Below, in pieces: positions 53,984 through 56,424 of a stretch of 56,524 nt of DNA (positions within the stretch are counted from its first letter, which is position 1; every line of letters starts with the position of its first letter). A program made the position numbers and the translations under genes. This DNA is from Alphaproteobacteria bacterium (GTDB lineage: Bacteria; Pseudomonadota; Alphaproteobacteria; Micavibrionales; Micavibrionaceae): positions 1 to 56,524 of the forward strand of contig JAJFGW010000045.1 of assembly GCA_021775915.1 (NCBI GenBank). Reading direction: 5' to 3'. The notes beneath the pieces are model-generated. The model searched no databases, was not told the origin of the DNA, and saw nothing but the letters and a program-made list of their open reading frames with translations.

Positions 53984-54121
53984 ATGACATCTGAAAATAA
54001 TAACCACGATGACCTTGTGAAGGCGGCAAGTAAGGCTAATAAAATGGCTGCGGTTGCTTTGTTTGTGGCTATATTCGCGGCGGCACTGTCGCTGGCAGCA
54101 TTGATGAAGCCTTTTTATTAA
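53984..54121 (+). CDS. Small single-span membrane protein, 45 aa
   Basis: A 45-codon gene with ATG 53984 and the ribosome binding site AGAGGAGAATAATTGA. The product has a polar start (MTSENNNHDDLVKAASKANK) and one Ala-rich membrane helix (MAAVALFVAIFAAALSLAAL) ending MKPFY. No family is recognised. It is divergent from the aminopeptidase gene (126-base gap) and converges on the diguanylate cyclase gene, with 9 bases between the stops. The good start signal and clean amphipathic design make it likely to be real. Confidence 0.6.
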   Translation: MTSENNNHDDLVKAASKANKMAAVALFVAIFAAALSLAALMKPFY

Positions 54122-54130
54122 TAAGATTTT

Positions 54131-55768
54131 TTAAGTTTTCTCTTCTTCATCTTTGTCATCATTTTTTTCAGTTTGTTCTTCTTCGGTTTCATCTGGCTCT
54201 GTTATGGCGTAGGTGTTTTTTCCCGCGTCTTTTGCGACGTAGCATGCCAAATCAGCATTTTTTAACCATTGGTCTATCCCCGTATCTTCGCTGGAGTAGG
54301 CAATCCCCACACTCGCGCCTATATAAATTTTATCTGCCGCGTTTATTTCTATGGGGTTGCGGATGAGCTCAATCAATTCATGCGCTTTTTTCTCTATAAT
54401 GTCCTTATCGTCTATTCCTCTTAAAAGAAGAGCGAACTCATCACCGCCAAGTCGTGCGGCGAGGTCTTCTTTGCGGGCGGCCAGGCTATTAAGCCGTTTG
54501 GCAACTTCTAACAAAACAGCATCTCCGGCATCGTGCCCGTATGTATCATTAACCGGTTTGAAATTATCCAGATCGATTAACATCAAGACCGATACCAAAT
54601 CCTTTTCGTGATGAGCCAGTAAGGCTTCGTCCAGAGCCTGTTTCACAAGACGTCTGTTGGGCAGGCCGGTCAAGCCATCGTGGTAGGCCATAAATTTCAT
54701 GCGGTCTCGCTCAGCTAACCCCTTGACCATATTATTAAACCGGTCAGCAAGGGTTCCTAATTCATCGTTCTGCGAGATGGTAACGTGAGCGGTATAATCC
54801 CCTTTTTCAACTCTTTCTGATGCGTCGACGAGAAGCTCTACGGGGCGCGTTACTCTTCTGGATATTCTAACCGTTATGGGGATTGAAATAGCCAGAAGCA
54901 ATGCTGTTATAAACATAAGGTACGGCCTGTAGCTCGTATATTCACGGAACAACTCGCGCCATGGTTTTTGTAAAACGGCGTATAGCTTGAATTCAGGGTT
55001 GTCCTGCGGAATGCTGATTGTTCTGGTTATAAATTGTCCAAAATCAATACCTAAGCCTCTTTCTTGTTCGATAATGTTCTTTTGGAAGATGTTTTCACTA
55101 TCAAATTGATCTACTGTACTGCCCATGATCATTGGTTCTTTTCTTGCTTCTCCGTTTGATTTATAGGCAACAAAGGTTAGATCTGTCTGGATGTAACTTT
55201 TGAAGTCCATTGCAAACTCTTTGTCGAGAATAAAACCTAAAATCACATAAGCGACAAGGTTGGGAGCTTTAACGGGAACAATTATAACCTGATATTTTTG
55301 AGCGCCAATAGAGGCGAGCCCTACAGCAGAGCTGTTTGCGGACTGATTGGCCCGGGTGACAAGAAGAGAAAAAGCTTGTTCTACTTTATTGTCCAGAACA
55401 CCAAAGACAGTTGAAGAAACATATTGCCCGTCTTTGTTAAAAATAGCCATAACATCTGCGTCGAGGCGTTTTTTATGGTTTAACATGGCAGAATTAATAG
55501 TTTCGAGGTTAAATGTTGCTATCGCTGATTTAAAACCAAAGTCATTGACCAGTAATGTGGTGTTTTCTCGAAGTTGCTCAAAACGATAGTCAAACATTTC
55601 ACTGAAGTAATCAGAGCTTCTCTCAAGGTCTCGTGTGATAAGGTACTGTGCATTTTTAATCGCTATATAATCAAAGAGAACTATGCTAAGGGCTTGAGAA
55701 AGAATGATAATCCCTGCTGTTGCAAGAAGAATGCGTTCTCTAAAAGATGTAATGCGAAAGCTCAACAT
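54131..55768 (-). CDS. Membrane diguanylate cyclase with extracytoplasmic sensor, HAMP and GGDEF
   Basis: The 545-residue protein has TM1 (about 12-34), a periplasmic sensor of about 245 residues that looks like a double-Cache domain, TM2 (about 283-300), a HAMP (about 301-355) and a GGDEF domain. The catalytic motif is GGDEF (441-445), with the inhibitory I-site RxxD (RKED, 432-435) exactly five residues before it, so it should make c-di-GMP and be product-inhibited. The C-terminal 25 residues are acidic. It follows the cupredoxin gene by 11 bases, which suggests the two act together, perhaps in copper or redox sensing; that is inference. Confidence 0.92.
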   Translation of the reverse strand: MLSFRITSFRERILLATAGIIILSQALSIVLFDYIAIKNAQYLITRDLERSSDYFSEMFDYRFEQLRENTTLLVNDFGFKSAIATFNLETINSAMLNHKKRLDADVMAIFNKDGQYVSSTVFGVLDNKVEQAFSLLVTRANQSANSSAVGLASIGAQKYQVIIVPVKAPNLVAYVILGFILDKEFAMDFKSYIQTDLTFVAYKSNGEARKEPMIMGSTVDQFDSENIFQKNIIEQERGLGIDFGQFITRTISIPQDNPEFKLYAVLQKPWRELFREYTSYRPYLMFITALLLAISIPITVRISRRVTRPVELLVDASERVEKGDYTAHVTISQNDELGTLADRFNNMVKGLAERDRMKFMAYHDGLTGLPNRRLVKQALDEALLAHHEKDLVSVLMLIDLDNFKPVNDTYGHDAGDAVLLEVAKRLNSLAARKEDLAARLGGDEFALLLRGIDDKDIIEKKAHELIELIRNPIEINAADKIYIGASVGIAYSSEDTGIDQWLKNADLACYVAKDAGKNTYAITEPDETEEEQTEKNDDKDEEEKT

Positions 55769-55779
55769 AATGAATTTAT

Positions 55780-56424
55780 TTAATAATTACCTTCTAAATA
55801 AGCGGGCTTTTTAGGCCAGCTAAATTTATCCCCCCTGGGGATCAGAATGTTATAGCTATCCTTATTATTTGACACAGACAGGCTACTTTTTTGAGCATGT
55901 ACGCCGTCGGTTTCATTGAGTCCGGGGTGCCAGAATTTTACGATATAAGACCCTGCCGGCACGTCTTTAATTTCTAGCGTTCCCTCATTGTTAGATACGT
56001 TGTGATAGGGGGTATCTACAACGACAATATATCCCAACATCCAGTCGTGAATATTGCAACCTAACGGGACTATTCCTTCTTTATCCATCATAAGGACAGG
56101 GCTTTGTCCTATATACAGAGGGATTTCAAAGCTTTTGGCTTCTGAAAAAGAGTAAATATGGTGGTGTGATTTGTCTCTGTTTGGAAAGGCGACTTTTGTG
56201 CCTTTTTGAACGGTCGCCATTCTTGGTTTAAATTTGAAGTTTCTTTGCATAATTTCCAGGTTATCGTCTCTAACCTTATCCTGTGCACTTTGAGGAAACA
56301 GAGCAACAGCAACATCCTTCATGGGGTTGTTTAAGTCATCGGTAATTCTTATTTCCAGAGCGTGAGCCTGAAGGGCGGACAAGAGTATGAAGGAGAATAA
56401 TATGAGATGTATTATTTTAGCCAT
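55780..56424 (-). CDS. Secreted cupredoxin-like protein (methylamine utilization-type)
   Basis: A signal peptide (MAKIIHLILFSFILLSALQAHA) precedes a cupredoxin domain. The type I copper ligands are visible: a His in KSHHHIYSF (87-89), and Cys123, His126 and Met129 in LGCNIHDWM. The region VQKGTKVAFPNRD is the preceding strand. The C-terminal 60 residues (LEIKDVPAGSYIVKFWHPGL) form a carboxypeptidase-regulatory-like beta domain. Such proteins are often labelled methylamine utilization proteins, but no mau genes are here. It is 11 bases upstream of a diguanylate cyclase, a pairing that I recall from other Proteobacteria. No gene is seen from 56425 to the window end. Confidence 0.85.
   Translation of the reverse strand: MAKIIHLILFSFILLSALQAHALEIRITDDLNNPMKDVAVALFPQSAQDKVRDDNLEIMQRNFKFKPRMATVQKGTKVAFPNRDKSHHHIYSFSEAKSFEIPLYIGQSPVLMMDKEGIVPLGCNIHDWMLGYIVVVDTPYHNVSNNEGTLEIKDVPAGSYIVKFWHPGLNETDGVHAQKSSLSVSNNKDSYNILIPRGDKFSWPKKPAYLEGNY

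Follow-up and report, generated by a model that had tools for sequence, protein, structure and literature searches.

The window, that is, the whole stretch of 56,524 nucleotides analysed here, is an entire contig (G000:C40) of the 2.45-Mb genome of an alphaproteobacterium of the family Micavibrionaceae, and was found to carry a gene for a secreted cupredoxin directly upstream of a gene for a predicted membrane diguanylate cyclase (Table 1). Cupredoxins of this type are kept beside one kind of double-Cache sensor in many genomes, and the sensor half is constant while the outputs attached to it are exchanged. It is probable (at roughly 0.6) that the cupredoxin is the periplasmic input partner of the sensor, whose output would depend on the copper or redox state of that partner.

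Table 1. Features of the cupredoxin-cyclase gene pair, with positions in the window.
Feature	Positions	Strand	Basis
Membrane diguanylate cyclase (predicted), 545 aa: TM, double Cache, TM, HAMP, GGDEF	54131..55768	-	
GGDEF catalytic domain, residues 361-518	54215..54688	-	Pfam
GGDEF motif, residues 441-445	54434..54448	-	
RxxD inhibitory site RKED, residues 432-435	54464..54475	-	
HAMP linker, residues 302-351	54716..54865	-	Pfam
Periplasmic double-Cache sensor, about residues 35-282	54923..55666	-	Pfam dCache_3, model; ends from model
Intergenic gap, 11 bp	55769..55779	-	ORF coordinates
Secreted cupredoxin, 214 aa	55780..56424	-	ORF reading, Pfam, fold model
Predicted ligand loop C123-N-I-H126-D-W-M129	56038..56058	-	C, H, M each 47/47 copies
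Predicted copper ligand position His88	56161..56163	-	H in 47/47 unbiased copies

The N-terminus of the cupredoxin, read by eye, is a hydrophobic signal peptide of about residues 1-22 ending in ...ALQAHA, with no Cys close to the cleavage site. Residues 39-135 matched Pfam Cupredoxin_1 below threshold (E 2e-4, 21.8 bits vs a cut-off of 27), and a weak carboxypeptidase-regulatory-like match at residues 138-173 was also sub-threshold. The top PDB match of the AlphaFold2 model (mean pLDDT 87) was 2ux6, a pseudoazurin into which an amicyanin ligand loop has been engineered (E 1.7e-6); its TM-score was 0.57 when normalised by the target and 0.34 when normalised by the query, the latter being low because the cupredoxin part alone was aligned. 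Other pseudoazurins, amicyanins and 5fc9, the purple cupredoxin of N. maritimus, came next; E values for the pseudoazurin and amicyanin matches were about 2e-6 to 1e-5. The ligand positions are H88, C123, H126 and M129, in a loop of the pattern C-x2-H-x2-M, which we take to be the amicyanin spacing. All four are kept in the 47 copies of the unbiased set described below, as are N82, D84 and S92, and the Trp of the loop is variable among relatives. Invariance in the cupredoxin alignment A1 was not counted as evidence, since the pattern GCNIHDWM had served to find part of its loci, and the unbiased set was taken instead. As judged from model and motif, the protein has a predicted cupredoxin fold with conserved His, Cys, His and Met ligand residues. 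Signal sequence, fold matches and residue conservation thus agree with the first-pass annotation, which had described a secreted type I copper protein with all four ligand positions. Fold and loop are common to amicyanin and pseudoazurin, from which the window protein differs in an additional C-terminal part and in its linkage to signalling genes.

Several plasmid records give such cupredoxins the product name 'methylamine utilization protein', and two of these records have an 'EAL domain-containing protein' beside it. A search of the window's genome for methylamine dehydrogenase (PF06433), run without a positive control as no control genome was positive, gave no match, and a role in methylamine metabolism is therefore unsupported. 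The use of the name and the outcome of this uncontrolled search are consistent with the earlier remark that the methylamine label carries no functional meaning.

In the cyclase the matches to dCache_3 (residues 47-208), HAMP and GGDEF were all above the Pfam cut-offs, and the RKED site, five residues ahead of the GGDEF motif, is intact, as is the motif itself. The structure model of the sensor (pLDDT 88.5) matched double-Cache sensors, e.g. 2p7j and 3lid. By its domains and motifs the protein is a double-Cache diguanylate cyclase, its activity being predicted. The large periplasmic sensor, HAMP linker, catalytic motif and I-site recorded in the first-pass annotation were all recovered, and the ORF coordinates confirmed its placement of the cupredoxin gene 11 bases upstream. 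The genome has a c-di-GMP network, with 12 GGDEF and 6 EAL matches. Upstream of the cupredoxin gene only 100 bp of the contig remain, such that the next upstream gene falls outside it. A scan for promoters and terminators gave a site count no higher than in shuffles. A small ORF on the forward strand (53984-54121), 45 aa by eye and with a hydrophobic C-terminal half, sits between a peptidase gene and the 3' end of the cyclase gene.

A first scan of genomes, made with sequence patterns of the window, gave at least 580 relatives, of which the best 80 were kept. Most of these 80 were from Proteobacteria; record titles placed others in Verrucomicrobia, Riflebacteria, Rokubacteria, Nitrospirota, Nitrospinota and Methylomirabilota. 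A homologue of the sensor half lay near the cupredoxin in 73 of the best 80 loci, adjacent in 60 and about one gene off in 13, one of the latter on the opposite strand; the remaining seven were L014, L023, L029, L049, L054, L056 and L080, L014 and L023 being short stretches.

As the first scan had relied on patterns of the window itself, the survey was repeated without them by searching one set of 299 Pseudomonadota genomes with both a cupredoxin profile and a sensor profile, the latter built from cupredoxin-adjacent sensors. A strong cupredoxin was taken at 118 bits or more, by which 19 of 66 matches were dropped, and a sensor at 100 bits or more with its N-terminal part matched, the best six candidates per genome being scored; both limits were chosen after the matches were known. 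This gave 47 strong cupredoxins in 43 genomes and, among the matches listed, 47 sensors in 42 genomes. Both proteins occurred in 41 genomes, the cupredoxin alone in two (G076 and G109), the sensor alone in one (G176) and neither in 255, again among the matches listed (Fisher p 7e-47, a statistic that ignores shared ancestry). A same-strand sensor followed 38 of the 47 cupredoxin copies among the matches listed, the matched stretches being at most 164 bp apart in 37 of these and 1094 bp apart in one; with a looser score limit 39 copies were paired. On the same basis nine of 47 cupredoxins had no adjoining sensor, and nine of 47 sensors were unpaired by the criterion of the script, two of them sharing a cluster with a cupredoxin. 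Within and between the two sets, no two cupredoxins reached 95% identity. The partner gene is therefore kept beside the transducer in 38/47 of the copies among the matches listed, and the pairing is conserved within Pseudomonadota and, to judge from record titles, in further phyla. Adjacency in other genomes, whose absence the first-pass annotation had named as grounds for refutation, was thus found in both surveys.

For 92 adjacent cupredoxin-sensor pairs the pairwise distances of the two proteins were correlated (r 0.79, against a maximum of 0.17 in 2000 shuffles), also among distant pairs (r 0.61), and 50 of the 92 had the identical nearest neighbour in both proteins. Such a correlation could arise from joint inheritance without contact. 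The clusters L136 and L137 (genomes G347 and G255) each hold two different sensors of the subfamily, flanking the cupredoxin on both sides. L007, a metagenome bin titled Klebsiella pneumoniae, carries the pair with a class III cyclase as output, though this label may be wrong.

The domains found by Pfam behind the sensor half were GGDEF, GGDEF-EAL, Guanylate_cyc, HisKA/HATPase, hybrid forms with Response_reg, and Pkinase. With outputs assigned via single representatives, the 73 pairs from the best 80 loci comprised 43 GGDEF-EAL proteins, 20 class III cyclases, two histidine kinases, one GGDEF protein and seven unassigned frames, several of them short or cut; the 39 pairs of the second set comprised 34 GGDEF-EAL proteins, one cyclase, one GGDEF protein (that of the window) and three unassigned. 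In selected proteins Pfam confirmed class III cyclases in L058, L015 and L134, GGDEF-EAL in L021 of Pseudomonas chengduensis DSM 26382, a histidine kinase in L004 and hybrid kinases in L032, L065 and L169; the hybrid kinase of L122 has no Cache match and is hence doubtful. In L170 the sensor beside the cupredoxin has a C-terminal Ser/Thr protein kinase domain (Pfam). At least six output changes were counted on a sensor tree of 105 rows, in which L169 and L170 stand on long branches, and five on a more careful tree of 40 of these rows. In the latter the window and L003, the sole GGDEF-only proteins among the assigned pairs, are sister to the histidine kinase of L004 with support 100/99. Two unpaired sensors, L130 and L131, also have GGDEF without EAL. 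Derivation of the window protein from a GGDEF-EAL form by loss of EAL was rejected, both trees placing it beside the histidine kinase; AU tests on this question were unusable because a control grouping was rejected equally strongly.

In relatives of the pair three further gene families were found at the locus, namely DUF3034 (PF11231, a family of unknown function) and two unnamed families of about 417 and about 305 aa, whose profiles were derived from the first set. All three are predicted to be outer-membrane barrels, an assignment made from sequence: the Pfam barrel matches of the unnamed families are below cut-off, with one of three tested 305-aa proteins having none, and an aromatic C-terminal residue is present in 26/31 and 17/21 members of the unnamed families and in 31/43 of DUF3034. 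In the unbiased set 25 of 47 cupredoxin copies have DUF3034 no more than 3.5 kb away, the 417-aa family was found in 12, the 305-aa family in one and none of them in nine; for the best 80 loci of the first set the respective numbers are 18, 9, 30 and 23. Flanking-gene coordinates were taken for 10 of 24 chosen loci, and ten flanking proteins from six clusters were scanned; no known copper-handling family was among these ten, which included instead a chromate transporter, globins and other signalling proteins.

In an alternative reading the cupredoxin is an effector acting with the barrel, as electron carrier or in metal handling or uptake, while the sensor, which would detect an ordinary small ligand, shares only its regulation. 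Six of the nine cupredoxins that have no adjoining sensor are beside or near a barrel (L114, L115, L116, L118, L120 and L121), so that the cupredoxin may serve the barrel first; DUF3034 follows the cupredoxin across genomes, its 31 occurrences in 299 falling in 30 of 43 genomes with a strong cupredoxin vs 1 of 256 others; and the sensor has the double-Cache fold, of which many solved examples bind small molecules. Against this, the window's genome gave no match to DUF3034, to the 305-aa family (whose profile was positive in G121) or to the 417-aa family (in a search without a positive control). Furthermore, both unnamed families were not found genome-wide in the nearest relative, G023, and none of the three is present in its locus L003. 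Across the swapped outputs the cupredoxin stays with the sensor domain, and not with any single pathway. We regard this alternative as rather unlikely. Since the three families are unmatched in its genome, the window seems to hold a minimal two-gene form, unless some other barrel is encoded past the end of the contig. The two-part module proposed in the first-pass annotation accordingly stands for the window and falls short for the family, which usually has a predicted barrel as well and, in one subtype, a globin.

The globin in question, of Bac_globin type, lies within 150 bp of DUF3034 in 43 of 43 DUF3034 loci (18 of the 80 and 25 of the 47) and in none of 84 other loci. A lipobox-like stretch was detected by a crude pattern in 26 of the 38 shorter globins of this kind. 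Two conserved Cys residues were also observed in this globin (example L146:6425-6859). In another reading the signal is nitric oxide, oxygen or another redox species, with which the cupredoxin, and the globin in the DUF3034 subtype, would react before reporting to the sensor. Such a scheme would fit the constant presence of the globin beside DUF3034, as well as the fold match to 5fc9, a purple cupredoxin that reportedly oxidises NO. It is nevertheless improbable, as the 52 loci with the other two barrels have no such globin, and the window's genome, in which DUF3034 is unmatched, has a single globin match, a 127-aa ORF with no obvious signal and away from the pair.

The sensor may itself bind copper or another metal, the cupredoxin merely buffering or delivering copper. 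Metal binding is on record for CHASE4 domains of P. aeruginosa, according to the available text of two papers: the CHASE4 domain of PA14_37690 binds Cu2+ 1:1 (PMC13277305), and that of IsmP (PA2072) binds iron (PMC10904736). The window sensor has a CHASE4 match as well, although a weak one that stays below the cut-off (E 0.004, 17.7 bits vs 26.2). The periplasmic part (residues 32-280), however, contains a single His (H98) and no Cys, and in an alignment of 37 sensors no column that is invariant or 90%-conserved is a His or Cys (45 cupredoxins and 37 sensors were picked for alignment from the 80 first-set loci and the window). Metal or redox information is therefore more likely to enter via the cupredoxin than by direct binding, and this alternative appears unlikely, although a metal site of acidic residues may exist in the sensor domain.

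Finally, that a common cupredoxin gene and a common diguanylate cyclase gene are neighbours by chance might be suggested by the occurrence of the cupredoxin in just one of 57 relatives of the genus, family and order, which makes local synteny little informative, but it was ruled out by both genome surveys, in which the pairing is kept among Pseudomonadota and, going by record titles, in other phyla as well, and its probability is negligible.

With its own genome included, the cupredoxin is present in 2 of 58 genomes of the genus, family and order, the other being G023, of the same family, which is the genome of L003; L002, a stretch taken from G023, is contained letter for letter in L003. The GC content of the pair is 41.7%, compared with a mean of 47.5 (sd 2.1) over 109 windows of the same length taken in 500-bp steps; the two lowest-GC windows of the contig overlap the pair, and the third lowest is at the opposite contig end. 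The pair seems patchy among the relatives of the organism and was likely acquired from outside. A viral origin was also considered and dropped, a single scan of viral contigs having given no relative.

Among the closest known systems is NspS-MbaA of Vibrio cholerae, in which the gene of a periplasmic partner lies beside that of a membrane c-di-GMP transducer, as in the window; the partner there is a homologue of polyamine-binding proteins, unlike that of the window, and we know of no copper protein or swapping of outputs in that system. STM1987 of S. Typhimurium is a Cache diguanylate cyclase whose sensing depends on ArtI, a separate protein of the periplasm; it differs in that ArtI is a putative arginine-binding protein and that its sensor is dCache_1, against dCache_3 in the window, as given in the available text (PMC8846402). 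IsmP (PA2072)/ImcA and PA14_37690 resemble the window protein in combining a periplasmic Cache-type domain with a c-di-GMP transducer, and their inputs are metals, iron and copper respectively, that bind the transducer itself (PMC10904736, PMC13277305, PMC13380032). In the accessible parts of these papers no cupredoxin partner is named, and the likeness to the window is one of description only; PA2072 also has PAS and GGDEF-EAL, unlike the window cyclase. Among the literature matches listed, no paper describes a cupredoxin linked in such a manner to a GGDEF or c-di-GMP transducer, and the reports that come nearest are those on the copper-binding and iron-binding CHASE4 domains (PMC13277305, PMC10904736). 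Papers containing both 'cupredoxin' and 'c-di-GMP' were, among those whose text was covered, unrelated to such a pairing, and those naming DUF3034 were not about this system, as far as their available text goes. In a retron paper (PMC12548924) the mention of DUF3034 looks, in the text available, like a slip for DUF3037, which is used in the same legend.

In the preferred reading, with the cupredoxin as input partner of the sensor, the two genes would form one sensing unit from periplasm to cytoplasm. Copper loading or the Cu(I)/Cu(II) state of the cupredoxin would decide its engagement of the double-Cache domain, and the change would reach the GGDEF dimer via the second TM segment and HAMP. 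Synthesis of c-di-GMP would be altered as a result, and the product would feed back through the RxxD site. We infer here that the cupredoxin binds copper and contacts the sensor, and likewise the direction of the effect and the identity of the signal. In relatives the same cupredoxin-sensor input would act on other outputs, usually with a predicted outer-membrane barrel in addition; in the window form the output would be a diguanylate cyclase only.

A wider proposal, which we put forward tentatively and at less than even odds, is that of a module spanning three compartments, made of a barrel (often DUF3034), a periplasmic blue-copper relay and an inner-membrane double-Cache transducer with at least six kinds of output, of which the window would be the smallest form. 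Blue-copper proteins are known as electron carriers; in this wider proposal one would be the signal molecule of a receptor and would pass on information about copper or redox state from the cell surface to second messengers and kinases.

Taken together, the results suggest that copper or redox state outside the cell membrane is read by a mechanism that is widespread and, it seems, has not been described before. If this is true, it would give a function to the large 'methylamine utilization protein' family and to DUF3034, would specify the input for an entire subfamily of Cache receptors with c-di-GMP, cyclic-nucleotide and kinase outputs, and would make a blue-copper protein the ligand of a receptor.
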